From an uncultured Lachnospiraceae bacterium (GTDB lineage Bacteria > Bacillota > Clostridia > Lachnospirales > Lachnospiraceae), in NCBI GenBank assembly GCA_900313265.1, contig OMRN01000351.1, forward strand, positions 1 to 15,090: DNA of 15,090 nt, read 5' to 3'. The position numbers and the translations under genes were made by a program. Shown here piece by piece: positions 1,411-15,090 of this stretch (the stretch's first letter is position 1; each line of letters begins with the position of its first letter). Under the pieces are notes generated by a model. The model had not been told where the DNA came from, ran no database searches, and was given only the letters and a program-made list of their open reading frames with translations.

Positions 1411-1470
1411 GAGGGTGCCAAAACGAAGAGGGTGCCAGGCACTTTTTGGAACAAAAAGTGCCTGGCACCC
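1411..1470. repeat. GGTGCCAGGCAC palindromic repeat with partial direct duplication
   Basis: GAGGGTGCCA occurs at 1411-1420 and again at 1428-1437, 17 bases apart, each preceded by a similar A-rich stretch. The second copy continues into a perfect inverted repeat, 1430-1448 against 1452-1470 (19 bp, loop GAA). Each arm contains the odd palindrome GTGCCAGGCAC, so the element is a palindrome of palindromes. From memory, similar GGTGCC(A/T)GGCAC cores occur as dispersed REP-like repeats in unrelated bacterial genomes; whether this one is repeated elsewhere cannot be judged from one copy. Confidence 0.75.
1430..1470. terminator. 19-bp hairpin between convergent genes, probable bidirectional terminator
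   Basis: The perfect 19-bp stem with 3-base loop lies 36 bases past the lipoprotein stop and only 6 bases past the phosphatase stop (TAA, minus strand 1479-1477). The upper stem is A/T (T5 against A5) and the lower stem is GC-rich. Read on the minus strand, the hairpin is followed by a pyrimidine- and T-rich stretch; on the plus strand by ATTTAATTAC. Neither is a classic U-tract, so termination is inferred from position and stem strength. Confidence 0.55.
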
Positions 1471-1476
1471 ATTTAA

Positions 1477-3153
1477 TTACACTCCTTTATATTCCAGCGC
1501 CAGCATGGTCATGTCATCCGACTGTTTTGCACCTTTGGCAAAAGTATCCACAACCGCGGTAACATGTTTGATCAAAAGTTCCGGAGCCGCTCCCGGCGGT
1601 GCTCCGCTTACGGCTTCTAAAAGTCTGTCCTCCCCGTAAAGCTCATCTTCCGTATTTACCGCTTCCGTAATACCGTCGGTAAATACAAAAAGCGTGTCTC
1701 CTTTTTCCATCTGATACACAAAGTCCTTATATTCCCGGTTCTTCCTTACTCCCAGCATAAAGCCGTGTTTTTCCTTAATGAATACCGTCGTCCCGTCCGC
1801 TTTGCGGATGACCGGATCCTTATGCCCGGCATTCGCAAAAATGATTTCCCCGGTGGAAATGGTTAAAATGCCGACCCACACGGTGACAAACATGCCTTCT
1901 TTGTTGTGTTCAAGTAAAACTTCATTGGTTTTTTTCATAATCTCGGAAGGCGAAAATCCGCTCTCGGCATAGTTATGAAGGGCCATCATGGACATCATCA
2001 TGAAAAGCGCGGCCGGCATGCCCTTATCCGAAACATCCGCAATCGCCATCCCCAGATGATCCTCATCCATTAAATGAAACTCGTAGAAATCCCCTCCGAC
2101 TTCCTTCGCCGGTCTCATAAAAGCATAGATATCGAACTGCGAACGGTCCGGAAACGCCGGAAACTTTGTAGGCATGGCATTCCGCTGTATCTCGGCCGCC
2201 AGGTTCAGTTCCGCTTCTTTATTCTCCATTTCCTTTTTCTCATGAAGCAAAGCGGTCATGGTTTCGCTTAAGTCGACGGTCATCCCTTCAATCGAATCGG
2301 CCAGAAAGCCGATTTCATCCCGGTGCATTTTGGCCGGTTTGTCAAACGTCCAGTTTGCGGGATCGTTCTCTTTCTTTGTTTTCTCCTGATATCCGAAAAC
2401 GGAATTCTGAAGTTTCCGAATCGGATTTACCAGCCGGTTATGAAGCAGAATATAGACAAGCACGGTCAGGAGCAGATAAAAAATCATGGCCCTGCCGATG
2501 GTCGAAATAATCGTCTGTTCAAGCCCGTCCAGACTTTCACTGACAAAAAGCATTTCCCGGTTCGGAACAACACAAAACCATACATTCTTCATATTTCTGG
2601 AAAAAAGTCTTCTGCACACAAACCGGTCTTCCGGCCACCGTTTTTTACTGTCGGCAAACCGGACCGTCACCGTTTCGTTTTCGCCGCATTCCATCATATC
2701 TTCGACGTCTGCGGGAAGAAGATTGTCCGCGGCGGACATATATTCTTTTACCTCTTCCGGATACAGCCAGGCACCTCCGCCGTACCGCAGATCTCCGTTT
2801 TCGTCCGGAATCAGAATAAATACCGCATTCATGACGCTTTTGATTCTGCCCTGCTTGTCTTTATAGGTATATTTCTCGAGAAAGTCCGACAATTGCTTGT
2901 TCAGCTGTATGATTTCGTCTTTTTTTTCTTTCCCGGCCCAGGCTTCCTTTAGTTTCTCACCGTCCAGATTATCGTTTATGGCAATAATCTCCTCCAGACA
3001 GAGAGTATCCGCCATCTCCCTGCCGGCAGTCGTTATCGCAGCAAACCCCATAAAATAGAGATTTAACAGTCCCGAAAAAATGATCATCACAATCATTATG
3101 CCGAGAAGCCAGCGAAATAATACATTTTTTCTGTAACTTCCTTTGTTACGCAA
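1477..3153 (-). CDS. Membrane-bound PP2C-type serine phosphatase (SpoIIE/RsbU family) with extracellular sensor and HAMP
   Basis: A 558-aa protein if translated from the TTG at 3153. This start has GGAGGA 8 bases upstream and overlaps the STAS stop (TTGCGTAA). Layout: short basic N-terminus, membrane segment about 13-40, extracytoplasmic sensor region about 41-221, second membrane segment about 222-238, HAMP-like region with NPIRKLQ at 243-249, a charged helical linker to about 315, and the phosphatase domain about 316-556. Metal-binding motifs are visible: GGDFYEF (Asp355), IADVSDKGMPAAL (Asp373), FTDGITEA (Asp493) and SDDMTM (546/547). Family members dephosphorylate a phosphorylated STAS-domain antagonist, and the gene immediately upstream encodes one. 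It is the last gene of the operon, and the sensor suggests an external cue controls the switch. The substrate pairing is inferred from adjacency. Confidence 0.93.
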   Translation of the reverse strand: MRNKGSYRKNVLFRWLLGIMIVMIIFSGLLNLYFMGFAAITTAGREMADTLCLEEIIAINDNLDGEKLKEAWAGKEKKDEIIQLNKQLSDFLEKYTYKDKQGRIKSVMNAVFILIPDENGDLRYGGGAWLYPEEVKEYMSAADNLLPADVEDMMECGENETVTVRFADSKKRWPEDRFVCRRLFSRNMKNVWFCVVPNREMLFVSESLDGLEQTIISTIGRAMIFYLLLTVLVYILLHNRLVNPIRKLQNSVFGYQEKTKKENDPANWTFDKPAKMHRDEIGFLADSIEGMTVDLSETMTALLHEKKEMENKEAELNLAAEIQRNAMPTKFPAFPDRSQFDIYAFMRPAKEVGGDFYEFHLMDEDHLGMAIADVSDKGMPAALFMMMSMMALHNYAESGFSPSEIMKKTNEVLLEHNKEGMFVTVWVGILTISTGEIIFANAGHKDPVIRKADGTTVFIKEKHGFMLGVRKNREYKDFVYQMEKGDTLFVFTDGITEAVNTEDELYGEDRLLEAVSGAPPGAAPELLIKHVTAVVDTFAKGAKQSDDMTMLALEYKGV

Positions 3154-3442
3154 TGTCCAGATCCTCCAAAAGACCCGTTTCTTCCAAAATTTCCCTGACA
3201 AAATTGTTGATATTCTTAACCGTAAGCGTTCCCTGATCGTCCATTGTCTGCATGGCAGAAAGTAAAACCCGAAGGCCCGCACTGGATAAATACTGCAGTT
3301 TCTCAAAATCCAGAATCAGCTGTTCCACTCCCGGCAGTTCTTTTTCCAAAACCGCCTTCAGTTCCGGCGCGGTATAGGTATCCAGTTTCCCTTCCACGGC
3401 AATTGTTAACGTATTTCCTTCCCGGTTCGTCGTAATATTCAT
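3146..3442 (-). CDS. STAS-domain anti-sigma-factor antagonist (SpoIIAA/RsbV type)
   Basis: A 98-aa single-domain protein covering the full STAS fold. Key features are the N-terminal strand ITTNREGNTLTIAVEGKLD, the 'LDTYTAPELK' segment, and LDFEKLQYLSSAGLRVLL. In the last, Ser53/Ser54 before Ala-Gly is the expected phosphorylation site, as in RsbV and SpoIIAA. Unphosphorylated antagonists bind an anti-sigma kinase of the RsbW/SpoIIAB family; phosphorylation releases them and an RsbU-type phosphatase resets them. The phosphatase is encoded directly downstream with an 8-base overlap. The kinase is not in this window. The start has a strong AAGGGGGA site that overlaps the stop codon of the preceding GH3 gene (12-base gap), suggesting coupling. 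The controlled target is unknown. Confidence 0.93.
   Translation of the reverse strand: MNITTNREGNTLTIAVEGKLDTYTAPELKAVLEKELPGVEQLILDFEKLQYLSSAGLRVLLSAMQTMDDQGTLTVKNINNFVREILEETGLLEDLDIA
3162..3167 (-). promoter_or_regulatory. Ribosome binding site GGAGGA that sets the TTG start of the phosphatase
   Basis: GGAGGA (plus strand tcctcc) lies inside the last codons of the STAS gene, 8 bases before the in-frame TTG at 3153-3151. No ATG between there and the membrane segment has a comparable site: the next in-frame Met is residue 20, inside the first transmembrane helix. The 8-base overlap with the STAS stop suggests coupled translation of the two partners. Confidence 0.8.
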
Positions 3443-3454
3443 CTTTAATCCCCC

Positions 3455-5173
3455 TTATTTCATTATTTCCACACTGTACATTGTCTGACTGAAGAAAAAT
3501 TTACGCTGCCTGGTGTTTGTAATAACATGCACCGGCTTAATCTGGCTTGATGCGGCTCCCTTTCTTACCATCATGTCATGGTACAAAAGGTAGGTTTCAT
3601 CTTCCAGAAAATTAAGCCTTGTGGCCCCGCAAACTTCATTTCGCACCTTTTCTCCCATGGAAGGATTCGCCCCGGCAAGTTTTTCTTCCAGTACATGGCG
3701 AATCAGTTTCGGTGGGATATCATGCGGCATATCGGAAATTTCCATAAAATACTGATACCGGACCGGCTCGGCCTTTAAGTCGGGATAAACGGAGAAATCA
3801 ACCAGATCAAATCCCAGTTCCTTTGCGGTTTCGAAGGCAGCCGTCCGGAGTGCCTCCTCCGTTGTTTTTTCTCCCATGATACTTACCGTCTGGTCAATCC
3901 GGTATAAGAAACAGACCGTCGGCGTATTTTCGTAAAAGGACTCGATATGAACCGCATCTCTTGTCCTGTAACGGTAAAGCCCCGATACGTTTGTCAGAAT
4001 CAGTTCATAATCTTTCCCCTGTTCCACTTTGTCAATCGTGACGATTTGCGAAAAATCATCCCCGGCATCAAGCGGCAGGAATTCGTAAAAGAGCGAATTC
4101 GGCAAAAGGACCGTATCCTCGCTGTCCAGCCGGTAAGTGGCGGATACGAATCCCTCGGATGAACCGATGCCGAGTTTAACCATGTGAATACCGTCGCCTG
4201 TATATTTTTCTTTTATCATATCGGCATAGGTTTTGAATCCGCCCGTACCGATTCCGATCATATACGCCATATTCTTCCAGACCTTCGGAACAAACGGCTC
4301 TTCAAACCCCTTCGCAAAAATCTCCCGAAGCTCCTCTGCTCTTTCCGGCATCGGTTTGATTTTCTCCGCTAACGTGGCTTTCACCTCTTCGGGAATTTTA
4401 ACGGAAGCATCAATCGTTCCCTTTTCAATATCATCCGCAAGCATCTCCCAGTTTTTCTCAATATAGCGAAGCATTTCCAGAAGGTAACTGTAGAAGGCAC
4501 ACACCATGCCGGTTGCACCTGACTCCGCTAAGGCAAAGCGTGCATGCAGATACCGGGTATCGGTGCCGCTTACCGGAAAAGTCGCTTCATCCGGAGATGT
4601 ATAAAGAATGGGCAGATACGGCCGGAACTGTCTTGTCAGTTTCTGTGAGAGTGCTCCGTAGCTGGCTTTGCAGGGAAGAAATGTTTCTTCTGCCGTGGAT
4701 TCGGCTATACGGATGGTTTTTCCGCCTGTCCATTCATGACCGATTTCTTTGTCAATCACACCGAAGGGCAAATTCTTCATATAGAGGTTGTACTGCTCCA
4801 TCTGCTCATCCGAAAGAGGAATCCGCTTGGGCGTTCCCATGGTTCCGGAACTTTTGTTGTAATGATGGATGGGTGACGCGGTAATCAGGTTTTCTTCCCC
4901 GTTTTCCGTCATCCGGAGAATATAGTCTATATAGTCGTCATAGATGGAAACCGGAACGTTTTTCTGGTAATCTTCGACCGATTTGATTTCGGAAAAATGA
5001 TACTTCTTTCCGTATTCCGTATCCTTGTTCTCATCAAGAATCCGCATAAGAAGTGCTTCGTTAACCTTCATCGGTTCCCGGCACTGCTTTGTAACATCTA
5101 AAAGAACCTGTCTGCCCGCCTCGATATTTTTTAAATAGATTTTAGCAGCCTTTCCTGCTGTTTCCTGATCCAT
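3455..5173 (-). CDS. GH3-family acyl-adenylate/amide synthetase, copy 2
   Basis: A 572-aa protein, close to the usual GH3 length. GH3 enzymes (ANL superfamily) adenylate a carboxylic acid with ATP and in characterised plant members join it to an amino acid. Visible motifs: ATP-binding loop SSGTMGTPKRIPLS (108-121), GIGSSEGF (335-342) corresponding to the family's S-S-E motif, and GLYRYRTRDAV (398-408) corresponding to the YRYRxGD motif, with Asp406 kept but the usual Gly replaced by Arg. The C-terminal subdomain, about 425-572, contains IMGEKTTEE. No carrier domain or signal peptide is present, so it should be cytosolic and act on a free or carrier-delivered acid. An AGGAA site lies 5 bases before the ATG. 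It sits 21 bases after the exporter gene and 12 before the STAS gene. It differs strongly from the other GH3 in the operon, suggesting a distinct substrate. The substrate cannot be read from the sequence; bacterial GH3 proteins need not act on auxin. Confidence 0.9.
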   Translation of the reverse strand: MDQETAGKAAKIYLKNIEAGRQVLLDVTKQCREPMKVNEALLMRILDENKDTEYGKKYHFSEIKSVEDYQKNVPVSIYDDYIDYILRMTENGEENLITASPIHHYNKSSGTMGTPKRIPLSDEQMEQYNLYMKNLPFGVIDKEIGHEWTGGKTIRIAESTAEETFLPCKASYGALSQKLTRQFRPYLPILYTSPDEATFPVSGTDTRYLHARFALAESGATGMVCAFYSYLLEMLRYIEKNWEMLADDIEKGTIDASVKIPEEVKATLAEKIKPMPERAEELREIFAKGFEEPFVPKVWKNMAYMIGIGTGGFKTYADMIKEKYTGDGIHMVKLGIGSSEGFVSATYRLDSEDTVLLPNSLFYEFLPLDAGDDFSQIVTIDKVEQGKDYELILTNVSGLYRYRTRDAVHIESFYENTPTVCFLYRIDQTVSIMGEKTTEEALRTAAFETAKELGFDLVDFSVYPDLKAEPVRYQYFMEISDMPHDIPPKLIRHVLEEKLAGANPSMGEKVRNEVCGATRLNFLEDETYLLYHDMMVRKGAASSQIKPVHVITNTRQRKFFFSQTMYSVEIMK

Positions 5174-5194
5174 ATTCGTTCCTTTCTTTCCTGC

Positions 5195-6949
5195 CTAGGT
5201 GTTATACATCGCGGCATATCTGCCGTTTTTCTTCATGAGCGCCTCGTGGTTTCCGACTTCGAGAATGTCGCCGTTTTCCATGTACATAATCTGGTCGGCA
5301 TTCCGGATGGTAAAGAGCCGGTGTGCAATCATAAAGGTCGTTCTTCCCTTTGTCAGTTCCTCCATCGCCTTTACAATCCGGTACTCCGTACGGGTATCCA
5401 CCTGCGAGGTTGCCTCATCGAGAATCAGAATCTTCGGGTCGGCAAGAATGGTTCTGGCAATGGCAATCAGCTGTTTTTCCCCTGCCGACAGTCCGATGTG
5501 TTCTTCGCTGATATGTGTATCATACCCTTCGGAAAGACGGCTGATGAAGTCGTGACACTGCGCCTTCTTTGCCGCTTCTTCAATTTCGTCCGGTGTGGCG
5601 TCCGGTTTTCCGTACCGGATATTGTCGGCTATCGTCCCGTCAAAAATCCATGTATCCTGAAGCACCATTCCGAAGTTTTTCCGAAGATCCGCCTTACTTA
5701 AATCCATCGTATCCGTTTCGTCCAAACGGATGGTTCCGTTGTTTATTTCATAGAAACGCAAAAGCAGATTGACAAGAGTCGTTTTTCCGGCTCCCGACGG
5801 TCCGACGATGGCGGAAAAACTGCCCTTCGGCGCCTTAATGGAAACATCCTTCATAAGAATATGATCCGGCGTATATCCGAAAACTACATGTTCGAAAGAA
5901 ACCTCTCCTTTCACATCCGCAAGCGGTTTGACGGACTCTTTCGTCTCGAGCGGGTCTTCTTCCTCATCCAGGAAATCATAGATTCTCGAAGCCGCCGCTA
6001 AGGCATTCTGGATATTGTTAAGGGAATTCGAAATCGTTGTCATGGGTGTCGCCACCATATTTCCGTAGAGAATGAATGCGAGAAAACATCCCGTGGTCAT
6101 TTTTCCGTTCAGTAAAAGAACTCCTCCGAGAATACAAAGGCATACATAAGTTCCGTTATTTACCAGAATGGAAAGAGGAAGCACCAGGCCGGATAAAAAG
6201 CGGCTTTTTACATAGGCTTTCCGAAATTTCGTATTCCGTTCCTCAAACGCCTGGAGTTTTTCTTCCTCGCAGCTGTAGGCTTTCATCAGGGTGTGATTGG
6301 AGTAGGTATCCGTAATCAGCGAATTCATATCCCCCACAATAACACTCTGCTCTTTGAACAATCCGCTGGTTTTGGTCGTAATCACCTTCATCAAAAACAG
6401 TCCGAACGGAATCAGCGTAAGATAAATGATGGCAAGCTTCCAGTTTGTTATAAGCATGGAAACCGCCAGACTGATTAAAAGCACAACCTGCCCCGCGAGC
6501 GACGGAACGGTGGATTCCAGGCCGTTTGAAAGCGTAATGACATCATTCGTCAGACGCGAAAGCACATCGCCGATCGGATGATTGTCAAGATAGGAAATAT
6601 GCATGCGGTTTAATTTCTTCTGGGCCTGGTTTCTGAGCGAGCAGATAAAGCTCTGGGAGATTTTTACCATTCCCTTTGTCACGAAAAATTCCGTTGCGTA
6701 TCCGACAAAATACAAAAACAGCAACAGCAGGCACTGCCTGATAAACCATGATTCGTCGGCACTTCCTTCCGTCATCATTTTTCCGAGATAGTCCGTAATG
6801 TTCCCCGCCACTCTCGGTGCCTGCGAAAGACAGATCTTGGCAGCGGAAATAATGATAACCAGAAGAATGACCGTATTCTTCTGCCTACCCATTTCCGCGG
6901 CCACACGACGCAGCATTTTTTTCCGGTTCGTTTTGGCAGTCTTACTCAT
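5195..6949 (-). CDS. ABC exporter half-transporter, catalytic subunit of a heterodimer
   Basis: A 584-aa type IV ABC exporter subunit: a six-helix membrane domain (about 25-320) fused to an ATPase domain (about 345-584). Walker A is GPSGAGKT (383-390), the Q-loop Gln is 431, Walker B is ILILDE with Asp511 and catalytic Glu512, and the H-loop is IAHR with His543. The signature is LSAGE (487-491) instead of LSGGQ. This pattern (intact Walker B and H-loop, altered signature) is that of the catalytic partner in heterodimeric exporters such as TM288, BmrD and LmrD. Its start overlaps the stop of the upstream exporter gene by 8 bases, with an AGAGGGGGAAGG site, so the two are probably made in equal amounts. 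The likely cargo is the operon's small-molecule product, inferred from context. Confidence 0.93.
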   Translation of the reverse strand: MSKTAKTNRKKMLRRVAAEMGRQKNTVILLVIIISAAKICLSQAPRVAGNITDYLGKMMTEGSADESWFIRQCLLLLFLYFVGYATEFFVTKGMVKISQSFICSLRNQAQKKLNRMHISYLDNHPIGDVLSRLTNDVITLSNGLESTVPSLAGQVVLLISLAVSMLITNWKLAIIYLTLIPFGLFLMKVITTKTSGLFKEQSVIVGDMNSLITDTYSNHTLMKAYSCEEEKLQAFEERNTKFRKAYVKSRFLSGLVLPLSILVNNGTYVCLCILGGVLLLNGKMTTGCFLAFILYGNMVATPMTTISNSLNNIQNALAAASRIYDFLDEEEDPLETKESVKPLADVKGEVSFEHVVFGYTPDHILMKDVSIKAPKGSFSAIVGPSGAGKTTLVNLLLRFYEINNGTIRLDETDTMDLSKADLRKNFGMVLQDTWIFDGTIADNIRYGKPDATPDEIEEAAKKAQCHDFISRLSEGYDTHISEEHIGLSAGEKQLIAIARTILADPKILILDEATSQVDTRTEYRIVKAMEELTKGRTTFMIAHRLFTIRNADQIMYMENGDILEVGNHEALMKKNGRYAAMYNT

Positions 6950-8675
6950 GGCCTTCCCCCTCTAAATAACACTGGGTCCGATAGATTTCCTGATAAATCT
7001 CACAGCTTTTTAACAGTTCTTCATGTGTCCCGCCTGCGACAATCGTGCCGTGATCCATTACCAGAATCCGGTCGGCATCACGGATGGTATTAATCTTCTG
7101 GGCAACCATCAGAATGGTTTTCCCTTTCAGCAATTCGTTAATCTGCTCCCTCGACTTCCGTTCGGTAAGGGCATCCAGCGCCGAGAAGGTATCGTCAAAA
7201 ATATAAACGGCCGCATCTTTTGCCACGGTTCTGGCCAGCGACAGTCTCTGCCGCTGTCCGCCCGAAATATTCTTTCCGCCCTGTGCCATAACGGTATTCA
7301 GCCCCTCCGGCATTTTTTCGATGACCTCATCAAAACAGCTGGCCCGGCAGGCTTCTTTCACTCTCTCTTCAGAGATATCCTCATCGTACATGGTAATATT
7401 GCGGTACGCCGTATCCCGGAAAACACCGGCGCCCTGCGGTGCATAGGAAAAGAACTTCTTTCTCTCATCCGGATCAATTTCGTCATACGCTTTTCCGTCC
7501 AGTAAAACCGTACCCGAATCCGGCTTGAAAAATCCCATCACAAGATTCATAACCGTCGTTTTTCCGCTGCCGGTCGCACCGATAAAAGCCGTCGTTTTTC
7601 CCGCACGGGCAGTAAACGAAAGGTTGCTGACCGTCTTCGAACCCTCTTCATATCCGAAGCAGACATCCCGAAACTCGATTTCCCCGGCCACATTTTCCGT
7701 CTTTTCTTTACCGGAATATTCGTTCTCTGCACGGTAACAGAGAAGTTCGTTGATTCTTCCGCTCGACACCAAAACCTTGGGAATCAGGTTTAACAGAGTG
7801 GGAATCACGGAAAGGGTGGTGGCAAAATAGGAAACATACTGGAAAATAACCAAAAGTCCGCTGACGGTGGCAAGTCCCTGTTTTAACTGACTGCTTCCGA
7901 TCCAGTAGATAATGACAACGGTCCAGTTCATGACAACAAGCGATACCGGCGATAAGAAATTAATCCGGTTATTTGCGCGGATGGCCATCTCATAGGCCTT
8001 CCTGTTTTCCTCCTCCAGGCGCTTTTCTTCATACTCCTGATTCCCGAAACTCCGGATTGTTCTTGCGCCGGTTATTTTTTCACCTACCACCAGATTCAGC
8101 CGGTCCTGCTGATTCTGCAGTTCATGAAAATAAGGCTTGGAGCGGAGTCCGAAAATCACCAGGAATGCAACGACAAAAGCAAATACAACGGCCATAACGA
8201 CGAAAATCGTCCGGTTCTGTAAGAAAACGGAAACAAGCAGAATCACAATGACAATCGGAACCATCAGGGACGTTCGCATAAAATTAATAACCAGAAGCTG
8301 AATCTGCGTGGCGTCGGCAACGGTTCTCGAAAGCAGTGTGGAATCCCCGAAATGAGAAAAATCCTGAGGTGTCATATGAAGCACTTTGTGAAAGCAGGCC
8401 GCACGGACATCGCTGGTAATTCCGGCCGTGATTTTTGCACTGAAATAAGCGGCACCCAGCGCAAAAACACCGGTAAGAAGAGAAAAGAATACCATCTTTG
8501 CCCCGCATTTAAAAATGGCATCCATATCCTGTGCGGATACGCCGTTATCGATAATCGACTGCATTTCCCGCGCAAGGAAATAAACCTGAATAATCATCTC
8601 GATACTGACTAAGATGACATTTAGGATAATCATTCCCGTATATTTTTTTCCGAATTTTCCCAGAAGTTTAAACAT
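6942..8675 (-). CDS. ABC exporter half-transporter, degenerate-site subunit of a heterodimer
   Basis: A 577-aa subunit with membrane domain (about 13-305) and ATPase domain (about 332-577). Walker A is GATGSGKT (366-373), Q-loop Gln414, signature NISGGQ (469-474). Walker B is VYIFDD: Asp494 is followed by Asp495 where the catalytic Glu should be, and the H-loop is VAQK with Gln526 in place of His. Its own ATP site should therefore hydrolyse poorly, while its good signature completes the active site of the partner encoded next. This matches TM287-, BmrC- and LmrC-like subunits. It begins 61 bases after the synthetase gene, with a weak GGGAAGAAG site. No promoter is evident in the gap. Cargo is unknown from the sequence; export of the synthetase product or self-protection is the contextual guess. 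Confidence 0.93.
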   Translation of the reverse strand: MFKLLGKFGKKYTGMIILNVILVSIEMIIQVYFLAREMQSIIDNGVSAQDMDAIFKCGAKMVFFSLLTGVFALGAAYFSAKITAGITSDVRAACFHKVLHMTPQDFSHFGDSTLLSRTVADATQIQLLVINFMRTSLMVPIVIVILLVSVFLQNRTIFVVMAVVFAFVVAFLVIFGLRSKPYFHELQNQQDRLNLVVGEKITGARTIRSFGNQEYEEKRLEEENRKAYEMAIRANNRINFLSPVSLVVMNWTVVIIYWIGSSQLKQGLATVSGLLVIFQYVSYFATTLSVIPTLLNLIPKVLVSSGRINELLCYRAENEYSGKEKTENVAGEIEFRDVCFGYEEGSKTVSNLSFTARAGKTTAFIGATGSGKTTVMNLVMGFFKPDSGTVLLDGKAYDEIDPDERKKFFSYAPQGAGVFRDTAYRNITMYDEDISEERVKEACRASCFDEVIEKMPEGLNTVMAQGGKNISGGQRQRLSLARTVAKDAAVYIFDDTFSALDALTERKSREQINELLKGKTILMVAQKINTIRDADRILVMDHGTIVAGGTHEELLKSCEIYQEIYRTQCYLEGEGHE

Positions 8676-8736
8676 CTTCTTCCCAAATTGTTAGCGTATG
8701 CCGAAGCTATCGTTTCTTTTTTCCGTCATGACCGGA

Positions 8737-11697
8737 TCAGCTCTTTAGAAGATCTTTCGTGCCGAGATCCTTTAAACTCTTTGCCGAAATCAGTTTCCGG
8801 ATACTATCGTCAATGGCCGATTGAAATTCCCCGATTCTCTTTGCGGAATAAAACTGCCCGGAATACAAAAGAATCGGAGTGATTCCCTTCGGAGTGTCCA
8901 TAACCTGCAAAAACATCCGGATCGGCGAATACGGATCATCCGCCGAGCAGGGATACGATTTCAGGCCGATTCCGCTCATGGCGCTTCCGTCCGTGATTTC
9001 CGACGTTTCATAGCTTAATGCCGCATAATCGTCAATAAAAAGACGCTCGTGCATGATTACCCATTCGTAAATTCCGTACCGGATGGTATTTAAGGACTGT
9101 TTCTGCAAATCCCGGAACATTTCCTCCGCATCGGCGTACGCATCCAGTTTTAATGCCGCCGGAACCTTCCTTAGAATCGGGCCGATTGCGTTTTTCGTGG
9201 CAAAGTCCACACGGTTATGGTAGGCTTTTGCCATCATCACATTTTTCTTTTTGTTACATCTTGCCATTGCAAGCAGCAAAACCGCCTCATAAAACTGGTT
9301 TCTGGTAAATCCTGTCCGTGCCTCGAAATCATCCATCTGTTCTCTGGTAAGGACCGCTTTACAGAAAACCATGTTCATGTTGTTTTCCCCGTCGTTCATA
9401 TCGGCATCCAGATTACAACTGAAGTCCGCACTTCCGTACGTCTCCGTCATATATTTTTCCGCCTCACGGTACTCATCGCTGCCCTTTAACTCCGCCTCCC
9501 TGGCAAGGCAGGTATAGAAGGTATCCATCGGAAGTTTCTTCCCTTCATAAGCCGTAACCAGCCTTCTTAAGAAAAGCTGCAGACCCATTCCGTCTATAAT
9601 CCCGTGGTGGAAAAGCGCAAGCAGATATCCTCTTTCTTCCGTCACATAGATTCCGAAACGGCAAAGCGGCTCACCCAGAATCCGTTTGAAATGCGACACG
9701 AAATCCTTCTTAATTCCGGCAAATTCTTCTTCGCTTACCCTGCAAATTTCCACTTCTTTTGTGCTTCCTTCCTTTACCGACTCAACCAGTTCACAGTCTT
9801 CGTTAAAGGAAAAAACGCTTGAGAATACCGGCGTATTTTTAATAACTTCATTCAGCGCATCTTTCAGTTTCGGTGCAATGGATACGTCCTCAAAACTGTA
9901 ACAGGCGGGAATATTAAATACCGGGTGTTTCGGACTGTACATCTGAATATCGACAAACGATGTCTGCGCGGCAAACGGCGGATATTCCCCTTTTCTTGCC
10001 CGCATTTCGTATTCTTCGGACGTAATGCCCCCCTGCTTTTTTATTCGTTCTTCATAAATCGCCGCAATCTTCCGGATACTCGATCCGTTAAAAATATCCG
10101 CGGCCGTCAGCTCATCCAAGTTCACTTCCGCAAGCAGGGCCATGGCTTTTAAGGAATCTCCACCCATCCGGTAGAAATCATCATCCAGACCGACTCTTTC
10201 CCTTCCGAGCACCTTCGCGGCGCAGTTACATAAAAGAATCTGTATTTCCGTCTCCGGTGCGGCATACGGGACTTCATAAACCTCCCGGTTCGGAGCCTCC
10301 AATGCCTTTTTGTTGATTTTTCCGTTTGCTAAAAGAGGGAATTCTTCCACCTGCACATAATAGGACGGAATCATGTAATAGGGGAGGGATTTTCCCATCT
10401 TCTCTTTCAGACCGGTTTCGTCCGGTTCGATTTCGCCCTTATAGTAAAGGCAGATAAAGGACTGTTCTTTTTCCTCAAAGCCCTTTGCCACACACCAGGG
10501 AATGCCGGTCACTTCCTTAAAGACCTTCTCGATTTCCGCGGGTTCGATCCGGTTTCCGTTAATTTTAATCATGTCGTTCGAACGGCCGAGCAATACCAGA
10601 TTGCCGTCCGGAAGCTTCTTTCCGAGATCTCCCGTATGATACAGTCCTCCCCTCAGGGCTTTTTCGGACTCTTCCTTTAAGCCGATGTATCCGCGGAAAA
10701 ACGGATTTTCGAAGGCAATCTCCCCGACTTCCCCTTCCGGAAGATCCCTGTCGTTTTCATCCAGAATGTGAATGATAATCTCATCACTGTTCGGCTTTCC
10801 GACGGGACAGACATCATACGGCCGGTCCACTTCAAACTGCGCCACCGTGAAGGCTCCCTCACTCATGGAATATGTATTGATTAGCGTTATGCCGTCAAGA
10901 CTGATTCCGTTTGCCGGTTCGCTTCCGGTGAACACATACTTCATATACGGTCCGAGATCGTTTCCGATAATCCGAAGCATCGACGGGGAAAGAAACGAAA
11001 TCGTCATTTCGTTTTCCAGAAAATACTGTTTTAATTTAAGCGGGTTCTTCGCGATATCGTAAGGAATCACATACAGGGTAAACCCGAGCTGGACCATGGT
11101 TAATACGATTTTGATGGAAGCTAAGAAATTAATCGGTGAAATCATCGCATACTTCGAATCGGACGTCACCCTTCTTCCGGTCTTCGCTCTCGAGGAAAGA
11201 CTGTTGATTTTGATATTGCCGTACTCATGCAGCACGCCTTTCGGAAATCCGGTGGTGCCGGATGTATAAACGGCAAAAGAGGCATCGTGATTGTCCGCTT
11301 CGATAAATCCTTCCTCGTATTCCTCTTTTTTAATCTTCTCATAAAGAGCCGCATCCAGAAATACTTTGCCGTTTACGTTTTTGCGTATATATTCAATCCG
11401 GTCGGGAGCGTAATCATCTTCCACAACGGTGAAGGCCGCACCCGCTTTCCATACCCCCAGCATGCAGACAAGTGCATGGATGCCCCGGGGCATGTCAATC
11501 ATGACAAAATCATTTGCCTTTATCCCGGCCTTTTTTAAGTATGCATATATGCGCCCGGAAAGCTCCTCTGTTTCACCGGCCGTAAGAGTTTCGCCGGTAC
11601 GTCCGTCCACAAGAATTACCTTGTCGGGATTTTCTTCCACCCGTCCGTACCATCTTTTCAGAAAATAAGGGATATTATCAAGAAGTGTTAAATCCAT
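8737..11697 (-). CDS. Non-ribosomal peptide synthetase, domain order A-T-C
   Basis: A complete 986-aa protein. The adenylation domain (about 1-470) has YTSGTTGFPKG (144-154), NTYSMSEGA (274-282, variant of NxYGPTE), YHTGDLG (353-359), the hinge region GRSNDMIKING (371-381) and PLLANGKINKKAL with catalytic Lys460. The carrier domain (about 478-550) has GGDSLKAM, with Ser515 as the phosphopantetheine site. A condensation domain fills about 572-985, with HHGIIDG (697-703; His698 and Asp702). No thioesterase or reductase follows. At the A4 core, NFLAS (190-194) has Leu192 where amino-acid-activating domains have Asp, so an ordinary alpha-amino acid may not be the substrate. The start has AAGGAG 6 bases upstream. 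The terminal C domain should join the acyl group on this carrier to an amine on another carrier or free in solution. It is paralogous to the synthetase at the right edge. Substrate and product are unknown. Confidence 0.93.
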   Translation of the reverse strand: MDLTLLDNIPYFLKRWYGRVEENPDKVILVDGRTGETLTAGETEELSGRIYAYLKKAGIKANDFVMIDMPRGIHALVCMLGVWKAGAAFTVVEDDYAPDRIEYIRKNVNGKVFLDAALYEKIKKEEYEEGFIEADNHDASFAVYTSGTTGFPKGVLHEYGNIKINSLSSRAKTGRRVTSDSKYAMISPINFLASIKIVLTMVQLGFTLYVIPYDIAKNPLKLKQYFLENEMTISFLSPSMLRIIGNDLGPYMKYVFTGSEPANGISLDGITLINTYSMSEGAFTVAQFEVDRPYDVCPVGKPNSDEIIIHILDENDRDLPEGEVGEIAFENPFFRGYIGLKEESEKALRGGLYHTGDLGKKLPDGNLVLLGRSNDMIKINGNRIEPAEIEKVFKEVTGIPWCVAKGFEEKEQSFICLYYKGEIEPDETGLKEKMGKSLPYYMIPSYYVQVEEFPLLANGKINKKALEAPNREVYEVPYAAPETEIQILLCNCAAKVLGRERVGLDDDFYRMGGDSLKAMALLAEVNLDELTAADIFNGSSIRKIAAIYEERIKKQGGITSEEYEMRARKGEYPPFAAQTSFVDIQMYSPKHPVFNIPACYSFEDVSIAPKLKDALNEVIKNTPVFSSVFSFNEDCELVESVKEGSTKEVEICRVSEEEFAGIKKDFVSHFKRILGEPLCRFGIYVTEERGYLLALFHHGIIDGMGLQLFLRRLVTAYEGKKLPMDTFYTCLAREAELKGSDEYREAEKYMTETYGSADFSCNLDADMNDGENNMNMVFCKAVLTREQMDDFEARTGFTRNQFYEAVLLLAMARCNKKKNVMMAKAYHNRVDFATKNAIGPILRKVPAALKLDAYADAEEMFRDLQKQSLNTIRYGIYEWVIMHERLFIDDYAALSYETSEITDGSAMSGIGLKSYPCSADDPYSPIRMFLQVMDTPKGITPILLYSGQFYSAKRIGEFQSAIDDSIRKLISAKSLKDLGTKDLLKS

Positions 11698-11762
11698 TTG
11701 CTTCTCCTTACGATTTCTTATTCCTGCGTTTCCGCGTTCGTAATATCTTCCTCTGAGCTTTC

Positions 11763-13328
11763 TTACTCCGTCAGAATAAATACCGGAAGTTTTGTGGAAC
11801 TGATGGATTTACCCTGCAGCACTTTTCCGTACAGACTGTTACGGTATCCCTGTTCATACTCGGTTACCGAAAGCAGAGTAATTCCTCTTTCGGAAAGTTT
11901 CTTTTTCATAAAGGCCTCAAAACCGTCTTTGTCGAATGCATCCACACCCTCCGCATAAAGTTTCATTCCGTCCTCATAGGATTTTGCCTGGAAAAAGCGG
12001 ATGGCCATTCCGGAATTTTTCTCATATTCCTCAATCATCTCCGAGATTTCGGCGGAATAAATCACCTGCCCGTTCGGCCTTCCGCTGTCCCCGGACTTGC
12101 ATACAAATTCAATGCGGAGCAGGCCGTCCTCTCCCTTCCGGAACCGCACAATATCCATAAGATTATAGCGGTACAGCCCGGAATAGGTGGTAAGAATCAT
12201 CTCATATAATCTGCCTTCCTTTACCTCGTGAAGGAGAGAAATTTCCCCGGTTCTTACGTCCCTGCATTCGTAGAACGTTCCGAAAAGCATCGGTATTCCG
12301 TACGGGACCTCCGGTTCCGTGACAACATCGACCTTCGACTCGCTGGCTCCGTATCCCCAGTGAATGAACAGCGTATGTTCCGGAAAAATATACCGGTATT
12401 CTTTTACAATCCGGCCGACCGATCCGGAAAGCCAGCTGTCGACAACGGAAAACTCCGGCCAGAAATCCGTGATATCCAGTATTCCCTTCTTTTCGTAAAT
12501 ACTCCGCAGGGTAGCCGCGCGTTCGGGATTCGGCGTAATATCTTCAAGAAGTATGGCTTTCTTATCCTCCGGCAGATTTACACTGAGCGTTCCTTTTTCG
12601 ATATCCGAAAGAATTCTTTCGGTTTTACCGTTTATGACATCCAGAACACGGATAAAGTGTGCGGGATTGTTGCAGATGAGTTCCACAACATCCTCATTCG
12701 ACAGTGCATAGAAAGCAAAGATTTCGTTTTGTGTATCGGCATCAAGCTGTCCCATACGCATAAACTTTGCCGGAACCGCAGCAAACCCGGAGGATTTTGC
12801 CTGTTTCAGTGCGACCCCCGATGCCGTTCCGATCGGTACGCCCGATTTGCTTTCTCCGTAATAGGAGGTATTCGTTATGGCAAAGTATTTCCTTTTTCCG
12901 GGGTGTACCTCATTTACCATACGCGCGATTTCCATGGACCGAATCGTATTGATAATACTTTTTACATGATCCCCGGACCGGCTTTCGGGAAAGGTTTTGG
13001 CATCCCCCGTTGTTCCCGAAGAAAACAGAAAATACACCGTTTCATCCGAATAAAGGACATTGTCTTCTCCCTCGTAAATCCGGTCTATCCAGGGTTTCAT
13101 ATCCCGGTAATCCCGGATGGGAACCTTCTTTTGATAATCCGAAACGGACTGAGTATCGGAAAAATCATACATTTTTCCGTACTCGGAATCCTCCGACTGT
13201 TTTAAAATATCAAAAAGGGTATTACGCTGCACATTTTCGATATCCGCAGCCTGACTTAAAATTAGCGTATGGAGTTCCTCTTTTGATCGTTTGATCAGTT
13301 TATCCGGATTGCTTTCCCTGTTTGTCAT
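11763..13328 (-). CDS. GH3-family acyl-adenylate/amide synthetase, copy 1
   Basis: A 521-aa protein from the ATG at 13328, chosen because GGGAGGAG lies 8 bases upstream; an earlier in-frame ATG at 13382 would overlap the preceding gene and has no comparable site. GH3 motifs: SSGTTGDAKTFP (103-114, ATP-binding loop), WGYGASES (324-331), GLYRYNLMDIV (384-394, Asp392 kept, Gly of the usual YRYRxGD missing), and a C-terminal subdomain from about 410. The predicted reaction is ATP-dependent adenylation of an acid followed by transfer to an amine. It lies between the two synthetase genes (37 bases after one, 65 before the other), which strongly suggests action in the same pathway. After its TAA the frame stays open for 14 more codons, mostly acidic (see findings). 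It shares only scattered motifs with the other GH3 in the operon. Substrate is unknown. Confidence 0.9.
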   Translation of the reverse strand: MTNRESNPDKLIKRSKEELHTLILSQAADIENVQRNTLFDILKQSEDSEYGKMYDFSDTQSVSDYQKKVPIRDYRDMKPWIDRIYEGEDNVLYSDETVYFLFSSGTTGDAKTFPESRSGDHVKSIINTIRSMEIARMVNEVHPGKRKYFAITNTSYYGESKSGVPIGTASGVALKQAKSSGFAAVPAKFMRMGQLDADTQNEIFAFYALSNEDVVELICNNPAHFIRVLDVINGKTERILSDIEKGTLSVNLPEDKKAILLEDITPNPERAATLRSIYEKKGILDITDFWPEFSVVDSWLSGSVGRIVKEYRYIFPEHTLFIHWGYGASESKVDVVTEPEVPYGIPMLFGTFYECRDVRTGEISLLHEVKEGRLYEMILTTYSGLYRYNLMDIVRFRKGEDGLLRIEFVCKSGDSGRPNGQVIYSAEISEMIEEYEKNSGMAIRFFQAKSYEDGMKLYAEGVDAFDKDGFEAFMKKKLSERGITLLSVTEYEQGYRNSLYGKVLQGKSISSTKLPVFILTE

Positions 13329-13335
13329 TTCCTTT

Positions 13336-13344
13336 ACTCCTCCC
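13336..13344 (-). promoter_or_regulatory. Ribosome binding site GGGAGGAGT that sets the start of GH3 copy 1
   Basis: A near-perfect Shine-Dalgarno sequence (plus strand actcctccc) ends 8 bases before the ATG at 13328-13326. It lies in the 37-base gap after the upstream synthetase stop and supports a start 18 codons downstream of the longest possible ORF. Confidence 0.8.
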
Positions 13345-13365
13345 TGTACAGGCTTTCCCCGATTC

Positions 13366-15090
13366 TTACTCAATAAGTTCACTCACCGTCATATCATGAA
13401 GGTTTTCGGATTTTAAGATCCTCCCAAGTACCTTAAGCATGGTCTGTTCGTACCTCTCTGCGATTTCTTCCGAATAGTATCTGGTACGGTAAAACAAAAG
13501 CAGATATCTGGCATTCGGCATGTCGTAAACCTGAACCACAAACCGGAAGATTGCCGTCTGCTGGTTATAGGGAATCCAGAATTGGGTAAACCCCATCTTC
13601 TTTGCGATTCCGCCGCTTGTGATATCCGTGGTTTCATAAACAAACATCACCGAATCGTTTTCCGGAACTTTCTCACTCTCCGCTACCCAGTCGCAAATCG
13701 AATAACGAATTCCGTCATTGGACTGCTTTTTTATCTCCGTAAGCAGTTCTTCGATTCGCATCTCTCCGGTAATGTCCAATCCGACGGGAAGATGCCTGTA
13801 CACGATGCCCATCGCCCGGTTCGTTACCTCATCCGTCCGGTTATGGAAAACCCAGTTAAGATACGGATGATCCGCATGGTTGCATTCTCTTTGTGCCAGA
13901 AGGCTCGCCAGAAGAAACAGTGCGTTTTTGGAAAAACCGCTTTTTGTTTCAAAATCTTTTAACACTTCCGTCGAAACATCTTTCAACGGAACCATCCTTT
14001 TCCCGACGCCCTCTTCTTTCTCATTCCGGTCCGGTTTTACGCATACGTCCCATGTCCGGTTTCCGTATTTTTTTATAAAGTAATCCCGGGCTTTATGATA
14101 TTCCGGTAAATCTTTCTTCCCGGCCTCTGATTTCAGATAGGTATAGAACGTATCGGGAGGCAGCGGCTCATTCATATACGCGGCATAAAGCGCTTTGTGA
14201 AACAGCCCGAAGGACAATCCGTCCACAATCAGGTGATGGAACTCAATAAAAAGATAGGCTTCTGTTTCTTCCACAATGTAGACGGCCGCTTTATATAAGG
14301 GACAGCCGGTCATCTTATAAATTCCGGCAAACGTCTGCTTAATTTGTTCGAATTCTTCTTTCGTGACATGTTCCGTTTTCGCCGGCGTAATGACAGACGG
14401 ATCAAACCGCTGCACCGGAATGCCCTCCCCGTCCGTTTCCACAACGGTCCGAAAAATCGGATATTCGGCAATCACGCGGTTTAAGGCATCGCAGATTTTC
14501 CCGGCGTTATTCACATCATCCAGCCGGTATGTCAGGGAAAGACCCCACATGGCTTTGTCTTCGGCGCTCATCTGAGACTGATAGATTTTCATCTGTGTGG
14601 CGGTAAGCGGACAGGCTTTCTTTCCGGCCTCTTTTTCCGTCTCCGTCTCATCCTGCTGCCCCGTTTTGCTTCCGGATACGCTTTTCTTTCGATAAATACC
14701 GGCAATCTCACGAATGACGGATCCCGAATAGATATCCGCTGCCGTAAGTCCTTCCTCCTTCAGTTCGGCAAGGAGAGCCATGGTCTTTAAGGAATCTCCT
14801 CCGAGAAGGAAGAAATCATCGTTTAATCCGACCCGGTCAAGTTTCAGTACCTTTGCCACCGACTCACACAGCTTTGTTTCAAATTCATCCGTCGGCGGAA
14901 CATAGTCGGTTTTATACTGTTTAATTCCCGGCGCCTTTAATGCCTTTTTATCCACTTTTCCGGTTGGCAGAAGAGGGATTCGGTCAATCTTTACATAGTA
15001 CGACGGAATCATGTAGTACGGCAGACGGCTTCCGAGTTTCTCCTTCATTTTTGCTTCGTCAAAAGACAAATCGTCCGTATAATACAGACA
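13366..15090 (-). CDS. Non-ribosomal peptide synthetase, 3' part (end of A domain, T, C); 5' end outside window
   Basis: The frame is open to the right edge and the first visible residues (CLYYTDD) align with an internal stretch of the neighbouring synthetase (CLYYKGE), so the gene is cut by the window; 574 residues are visible. In visible numbering: end of the adenylation domain with PLLPTGKVDKKAL (about 40-52), carrier domain with GGDSLKTM (Ser100), a charged T-C linker (about 138-158) rich in Glu, Lys and Thr, and a condensation domain with HHLIVDG (285-291) running to the C-terminus. There is no thioesterase. The condensation domain shares the same local patterns as the downstream synthetase (DTFYTYL, IRYSICDWV against IRYGIYEWV), so the two genes are paralogues. 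Read in operon order, its C domain could pair with the adenylation-carrier unit of the next synthetase. Its substrate-binding region is outside the window, so specificity cannot be judged. The gene may contain more upstream modules. Confidence 0.92.
   Translation of the reverse strand, partial: CLYYTDDLSFDEAKMKEKLGSRLPYYMIPSYYVKIDRIPLLPTGKVDKKALKAPGIKQYKTDYVPPTDEFETKLCESVAKVLKLDRVGLNDDFFLLGGDSLKTMALLAELKEEGLTAADIYSGSVIREIAGIYRKKSVSGSKTGQQDETETEKEAGKKACPLTATQMKIYQSQMSAEDKAMWGLSLTYRLDDVNNAGKICDALNRVIAEYPIFRTVVETDGEGIPVQRFDPSVITPAKTEHVTKEEFEQIKQTFAGIYKMTGCPLYKAAVYIVEETEAYLFIEFHHLIVDGLSFGLFHKALYAAYMNEPLPPDTFYTYLKSEAGKKDLPEYHKARDYFIKKYGNRTWDVCVKPDRNEKEEGVGKRMVPLKDVSTEVLKDFETKSGFSKNALFLLASLLAQRECNHADHPYLNWVFHNRTDEVTNRAMGIVYRHLPVGLDITGEMRIEELLTEIKKQSNDGIRYSICDWVAESEKVPENDSVMFVYETTDITSGGIAKKMGFTQFWIPYNQQTAIFRFVVQVYDMPNARYLLLFYRTRYYSEEIAERYEQTMLKVLGRILKSENLHDMTVSELIE

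Follow-up and report, generated by a model that had tools for sequence, protein, structure and literature searches.

GH3 enzymes are chiefly known for conjugating plant hormones, and in the literature that we searched one bacterial GH3 has a characterised function, OlsH. In plants, GH3s activate the acid by adenylation and transfer it to an amino acid, and a similar mechanism is assumed for OlsH (PMC12493201). We describe here a predicted eight-gene operon of an uncultured Lachnospiraceae bacterium that combines two GH3 genes (GH3a and GH3b) with two non-ribosomal peptide synthetase (NRPS) genes (NRPS1 and NRPS2), two ABC half-exporter genes (ABC1 and ABC2), a STAS gene and a SpoIIE-type phosphatase gene. 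The stretch of DNA analysed, hereafter the window, is a whole contig of 15,090 bases (OMRN01000351.1 of assembly GCA_900313265.1; C437 in our set) from a 73%-complete metagenome-assembled genome (MAG) of 2.24 Mb in 477 contigs. The window GH3s share fold and family with the plant enzymes JAR1, GH3.5, GH3.12 and GH3.15; those act in stand-alone hormone conjugation, whereas the window GH3s are paired and accompanied by NRPS and exporter genes. OlsH/OlsI resembles the window in having a bacterial GH3-fold, ATP-dependent amide synthetase within a biosynthetic operon, but it has one GH3 and a hydrolase partner, and the accessible text describes no NRPS, exporter or switch (PMC12493201). Both window GH3s scored far under the NCBIfam model for OlsH (NF052613; 94.9 and 51.5 bits vs a cut-off of 620).

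The fatty-acid amide pathways of gut Clostridia (OaaA/OaaACP/OaaC; PMC13142362) also use adenylation (A), carrier (T) and condensation (C) functions to make small amides. Their proteins are described as free-standing, with the C motif (D/H)HxxxD(S/A/G), whereas the window has fused A-T-C proteins, HHxxxDG motifs and two GH3s. The window motifs, HHGIIDG and HHLIVDG, differ from (D/H)HxxxD(S/A) in the last place, where Gly is reported for 17% of the fatty-acid amide sequences (PMC13142362). Related regulator logic is found in SiaABCD, where SiaC binds and activates the diguanylate cyclase SiaD (PMC8457831), and in SypE/SypA, where the STAS protein SypA is controlled by SypE and acts in biofilm formation by a mechanism described there as unknown (PMC4517449); the targets, a cyclase and biofilm formation, differ from what the window offers. 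The window phosphatase scored 48.1 bits with the SiaA model NF038263 (cut-off 700). A GH3-annotated protein, RubP3, also occurs in a secondary-metabolite cluster, that of rubiginone (PMC8487521), but this is a Streptomyces polyketide cluster and the accessible text does not show the other window parts there. We rejected filing the operon under OlsH, SiaA or the fatty-acid amide pathways, since the scores stayed below the cut-offs or the architecture differed. No description of this gene combination was found in the titles and abstract openings listed from the open-licence literature, where two lists covered the top 20 of 102 and of 64 papers, in agreement with the initial annotation, which had not recognised a characterised system. 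We thus call it a biosynthesis-export operon, a known kind, in a form that is new to the searched literature.

We lean slightly towards reading it as a self-contained operon that would make and export a small acyl-amide or a short peptide-like amide under partner switching behind a membrane sensor. The centre of this reading is a conserved core of GH3b, a second GH3 and the exporter. GH3b fell in a clade of 17 sequences (SH-aLRT 99; tree of 111 GH3 sequences), 9 of them with gene context and 8 being database proteins without context. All 9 members with context (the window, L033, L040, L146, L147, L149, L150, L165 and L168) adjoin a second GH3 gene and two ABC exporter genes. In a tree of 42 ABC proteins, the ABC1 sequences of these nine loci and no others make up one clade and the ABC2 sequences another (support 99 and 100, respectively), and the pairwise distances are correlated between GH3b and ABC1 (r 0.72), GH3b and ABC2 (r 0.70), and ABC1 and ABC2 (r 0.97), values that were reached in 1, 1 and 0 of 5000 permutations, respectively. 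In all nine loci ABC1 has Walker B DD and an H-loop Gln, while ABC2 has DE and His, the pattern of a predicted heterodimeric exporter with one degenerate and one consensus ATP site. Because of the matching clades, the correlated distances and the shared Walker B and H-loop signature, we conclude that GH3b and the exporter have travelled together. The initial annotation had named conserved synteny beforehand as the test of a unit, and the matching clades of GH3b, ABC1 and ABC2 in nine loci bear it out. A chance row of genes was rejected on the GH3b and ABC clades, the distance correlation and the recurrence of STAS and SpoIIE beside GH3. Domains, active-site motifs, heterodimeric exporter, switch parts and core synteny can all be read from the sequences.

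The row of genes given in the initial annotation was recovered as described: eight genes, all on the (-) strand, run from 15090 to 1477 with spacings between -8 and +65 bases, and all of its domains (T and C, GH3, A-T-C, two ABC exporters, GH3, STAS and SpoIIE) scored above the Pfam cut-offs. The spacings are about 37 bases for NRPS1-GH3b (assuming that GH3b starts at the ATG by which it equals database protein P0001 in length, 521 aa), 65 for GH3b-NRPS2, 61 for NRPS2-ABC1, -8 for ABC1-ABC2, 21 for ABC2-GH3a, 12 for GH3a-STAS and -8 for STAS-SpoIIE.

Features of the operon and its downstream border in the window, with the evidence for each.
Feature	Position	Strand	Evidence
NRPS1, 5' part cut by contig end	13366..15090	-	End of A domain, T (GGDSL), C (HHLIVDG)
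GH3b, acyl acid-amido synthetase type, 521-aa form	11763..13328 (ORF opens 13382)	-	Pfam GH3, fold, clade
NRPS2, A-T-C, 986 aa	8737..11697	-	Pfam; T GGDSL, C HHGIIDG
ABC1, half-exporter, degenerate site	6942..8675	-	Walker B IFDD, H-loop Gln
ABC2, half-exporter, canonical	5195..6949	-	Walker B DE, H-loop His, C-loop LSAGE
GH3a, acyl acid-amido synthetase type, 572 aa	3455..5173	-	All three GH3 Pfam domains
STAS, anti-anti-sigma type	3146..3442	-	Pfam 56 bits, TIGR00377 above cut-off, SSAGLR
SpoIIE/RsbU-type PP2C phosphatase, two transmembrane helices	1477..3153	-	Pfam, alignment, model
Inverted repeat, 19-bp stem, between the convergent SpoIIE gene and the gene at 413-1393	1430..1470	.	Sequence scan

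The amide-forming partner of this core is exchangeable. The NRPS genes, which had been taken as a standing part of the operon, lost that place: they occur in 2 of the nine core loci (two A-T-C proteins in the window and one, of 988 aa, in L150). RimK-type ATP-grasp ligases occupy five others, with one in L040, two each in L146, L147 and L149, and one in L168 together with a RimK-GH3b fusion (Pfam calls for L040 and one of the two in L147, our own profile for the rest), and in L033 and L165 the place is taken by a CapA-like PGA_cap gene. The L147 locus reads STAS-GH3-GH3-ABC-ABC-RimK-RimK. Since ATP-grasp ligases replace the NRPS elsewhere, the fixed part would be GH3b, the second GH3 and the exporter. 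Four of the listed database relatives of GH3b (P0038, P0040, P0042 and P0043) also carry a RimK domain in the same chain, and such fusions tie GH3b to amide ligation. Three equalities between the longest contigs of the GH3b and NRPS2 homologue lists (29273, 41571 and 8535 bases) suggest that further NRPS-type GH3b loci exist.

GH3a and GH3b scored 240.8 and 187.4 bits, respectively, with Pfam GH3 (cut-off 23.6), which places both in the family. Foldseek aligned the AlphaFold model of GH3b (mean pLDDT 91.6) with plant GH3 enzymes at a best E of 2.3e-30, and GH3a matches plant GH3 chains at the sequence level. SSGT and YRY motifs are found in both proteins, and Y326, E330, YRY 386-388, D392 and K513 are invariant in a 46-row alignment of GH3b and its kin; we take the motif residues to have nucleotide-binding and hinge roles. 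The gene is rare, with a strong match (>100 bits) in 3 of the 31 genomes of the genus, just one of which, that of the window, carries two GH3s side by side. Our survey with PF03321 covered 392 genomes of the order (46 matched), 391 of the class (27) and 397 of the family (49), sets that overlap and counts that include weak matches. Stretches around most of the strong matches, plus 16 loci from genome contigs, gave the 97 GH3 loci used below, after removal of two duplicates (L029 of L118 and L032 of L115); the GH3 tree further excludes L034 and L041. Database homologues of GH3b in Fibrobacter (52% identity), Methanobrevibacter (33–35%) and Acetobacterium (33%) suggest that the gene has crossed between phyla, and for these three groups our gene context covers Acetobacterium-like loci only.

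Over its last 574 residues NRPS1 matches database protein P0128 (residues 414-987) with 100% identity, so that the complete NRPS1 is a 987-aa A-T-C protein; P0128 is 54% identical to NRPS2. Its missing start was not found among the proteins of eight other contigs of the MAG, none of which exceeded 37% identity to P0128. The active-site motifs expected of an NRPS are present (A3 YTSGTTG, A10 Lys, GGDSL and HHxxxDG). In the alignment to LgrA, the NRPS2 A domain has Leu at the Asp235 position, which, by the numbering and role that we assume, binds the alpha-amino group of an amino acid. Asp is present at this position in 1 of 120 aligned A-T-C relatives and absent from the other 119. With Leu in NRPS2 and Asp so rare in its relatives, we infer that both NRPSs load acids without an alpha-amino group. 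The relatives (P0121-P0240) belong to a large family of A-T-C proteins of about 980 aa, with 3171 matches among 7997 scored candidates, 120 of which were listed. The genome from which the window comes contains a further NRPS locus, without GH3 (L058; G000:C390, 2-7509), in which a C-A-T-reductase NRPS is followed by STAS, a SpoIIE-HATPase protein and a MATE pump.

We next consider the STAS and SpoIIE genes. The STAS proteins share SSxG at the phospho-site region in 20 of 20 aligned rows (SSAGLR in the window), whose serine is presumably the phospho-acceptor. SpoIIE starts with a TTG at 3153, preceded by a GGAGG-like site, and the database form P0241 is likewise 558 aa long. In this protein two hydrophobic stretches flank a part presumed to be extracytoplasmic (about residues 40-210), and the acidic residues that bind metal in PP2C phosphatases (D355, D373, D493, D546 and D547) are invariant in 42 rows. 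Its model (mean pLDDT 79, pTM 0.49) gave the RsbU domain of Rv1364c, RssB and SiaA as best PDB folds; the 50 PDB matches listed carry the titles of phosphatases, none being a separate match for the sensor part.

SpoIIE was found within 10 kb of GH3 in 11 of 60 loci from 52 genomes vs 1.6 expected (Poisson P 1.2e-6; 10 vs 1.6 with one of two same-genus positives dropped), in a tally that was compiled by hand, includes the window, uses genomes chosen for having GH3, and takes its expectation from Pfam genome counts while the observed number also uses our own locus annotation. We also compared the 97 GH3 loci (mean 16.3 kb) with 40 hand-picked 20-kb stretches of GH3-bearing genomes; the GH3 loci are related, several come from one genome, and the p values flatter the result because the profiles were trained on GH3 loci. 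With these limits, higher counts were obtained at GH3 loci for STAS (21/97 vs 1/40, p 0.003), SpoIIE and HATPase (each 19/97 vs 0/40, p 0.0008), MATE-HATPase fusions (14/97 vs 0/40, p 0.006), MATE (20/97 vs 2/40, p 0.02), RimK-type ligases (20/97 vs 1/40, p 0.004), ABC pairs (18/97 vs 2/40, p 0.03) and C domains (9/97 vs 0/40, p 0.04), with A domains at 11/97 vs 1/40 (p 0.08). The RimK profile also matched pyruvate carboxylase (L147:15550-19014), which was excluded from the counts by length. APH (7/97 vs 0/40, p 0.08) and sugar-transfer ATP-grasp (3/97 vs 0/40, p 0.35) are leads only, and the glycosyltransferase GT2 was not enriched (11/97 vs 3/40, p 0.37). Among the 21 loci with STAS, this gene directly adjoins GH3 on the same strand 12 times and divergently twice. 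At least 8 of 28 C-domain loci above the cut-off (21 genomes, by hand) had SpoIIE within 10 kb, three of these being GH3 loci.

Kinase domains appear in the same neighbourhoods. An RsbW-like HATPase lies beside or is fused to SpoIIE in L054, L137, L175, L176, L031, L032 and also L159, loci in which a MATE exporter or two SpoIIE genes are present. HATPase_c_2 at the C-terminus of a MATE pump was confirmed by Pfam in L032 (11984-13726), beside GH3, STAS and SpoIIE. MATE proteins with a C-terminal RsbW-like HATPase were found as 16 genes in GH3 regions and in L201-L208 (by our own profiles except for L032), and in L201, L204 and L208 the gene adjoins SpoIIE away from GH3. A STAS-APH fusion and APH-type kinases also occur near GH3 (L141:7663-8829; L152:7256-8005; L126, L129 and L136), and could be an alternative kinase.

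Under the reading that we favour, GH3a and GH3b would each adenylate a free carboxylic acid and couple it to an amine. The carrier domains of the two A-T-C NRPSs would be charged with acids that have no alpha-amino group, which the C domains would hand to a free amine or to one that the GH3 products supply. Carrier-bound and carrier-free activation would in this way cooperate in one pathway. No thioesterase was seen in the operon and C follows T, so release would occur by amide formation onto the amine, and ABC1/ABC2 would export the product. The transmembrane SpoIIE-type phosphatase would sense an outside signal and dephosphorylate STAS, which would then change the activity of a target that we suppose to be a GH3 or the exporter and not a sigma factor. 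Gene contact and the exporter-kinase fusions suggest such direct action of STAS on GH3 or the exporter, and control of something else than a sigma factor is already known from the direct activation of SiaD by SiaC (PMC8457831).

Several observations weigh against this reading. STAS is present in 5 of the nine core loci (window, L146, L147, L165 and L168) and SpoIIE in 3 (window, L165 and L168), and L150, the only other NRPS core locus, has neither in a further 18 kb past the exporter. The signalling pair that the initial annotation proposed holds as a recurrent neighbour of GH3 and falls short as a constant part of the core. Neither an HATPase kinase nor a sigma factor was found among the ten window proteins scanned, though the operon start is missing; as the window is without HATPase, the kinase would have to lie beyond the cut end or elsewhere. 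No HATPase was seen in L168, and L165 has only a 135-aa match to our own profile that Pfam did not confirm. The second GH3s of the other eight core loci share a clade to which the window GH3a does not belong, and the nearest kin of GH3b and of the ABC genes differ in L033; both points speak against strict co-inheritance. The core loci are not independent, 3 of 9 being from one genus (g253, Acetobacterium by P0030). Finally, the chemistry with its substrates and product, the protein interactions and the STAS target are all predicted.

An unlikely alternative is that the product stays on the cell, the GH3s attaching amino acids to sugar acids or envelope precursors that the ABC pair flips. Fusions of GT2 glycosyltransferase and GH3 (770–877 aa) in L141, L178, L180, L181, L184, L186 and L187 (called by our own profiles, with Pfam for L141 and L187) are in line with such surface decoration, as are the CapA-like genes of L033 and L165 and the sugar-transfer ATP-grasp of L137. 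However, these fusions sit in a different GH3 clade from GH3b, no glycosyltransferase was found among the window proteins scanned, and GT2 showed no enrichment near GH3, as given above. We also find it improbable that the GH3s join fatty acids to amino acids to form N-acyl amino acid membrane lipids, with the ABC pair as lipid flippase. OlsH sets the example, as it uses ATP to couple ornithine and a free fatty acid to N-acyl ornithine (PMC12493201). Among the NCBIfam models, MsbA scores best with ABC1, although below its cut-off (344 of 602 bits), and A domains without Asp235 are compatible with fatty acids; yet the GH3s score far below the OlsH cut-off and no OlsI-like hydrolase was found among the window proteins scanned. 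Least probable is that STAS and SpoIIE control a sigma factor elsewhere, as many known STAS-PP2C pairs do, and merely share the biosynthesis-export transcript: the window without kinase and the patchy presence of both genes in the core loci fit this, but the recurrent direct contact with GH3 genes, the kinase domains fused to exporters in relatives, and the STAS, SpoIIE-HATPase and MATE exporter genes of L058 speak against it.

Beyond the secreted-amide operon of the window, we tentatively raise a wider proposal, which we regard as possible though doubtful. These loci may form a new class of secreted-amide systems built on a GH3 pair and a heterodimeric exporter, with NRPS and ATP-grasp as interchangeable cassettes and a switch (SpoIIE, STAS and RsbW-like kinase) that would act on an enzyme or pump, not on a sigma factor, the MATE variants having the kinase built into the exporter. 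A GH3 pathway that is conserved, exported and partly under a switch in Acetobacterium and gut Clostridia, with GH3b kin in Methanobrevibacter and Fibrobacter, would point to an unmined metabolite class. The swapping of NRPS and ATP-grasp around one core is a natural experiment on the exchange of amide modules, and the kinase-exporter fusions make sigma-factor-free control of secretion by partner switching directly testable.

Regarding the contig itself, the longest listed contigs for the GH3b cluster (P0001) and for the SpoIIE form P0245 are both 55,255 bases long; from this equality we infer that they are the same contig, so the linkage of GH3b and SpoIIE is probably no assembly chimera. The flanks of some other loci, e.g. 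L033 and L121, are cut by contig ends. Promoter-like sites in the window were not above shuffles (14 vs a mean of 19.4). The gene at 413-1393, convergent to the operon, has a lipoprotein-like start and no Pfam or NCBIfam match. Terminator-like sites exceeded the shuffles (30 vs a mean of 18.9, sd 4.5), some weak ones lying within the operon on its strand, and the inverted repeat at the end of the SpoIIE gene is a probable two-way terminator. Among the other GH3 loci, L138 (4872-14902) and the similar L135, L139, L158, L160 and L161 have a GH3 of 517–553 aa flanked by several copies of one family, and the scanned copy proved to be a B12-binding radical SAM protein.

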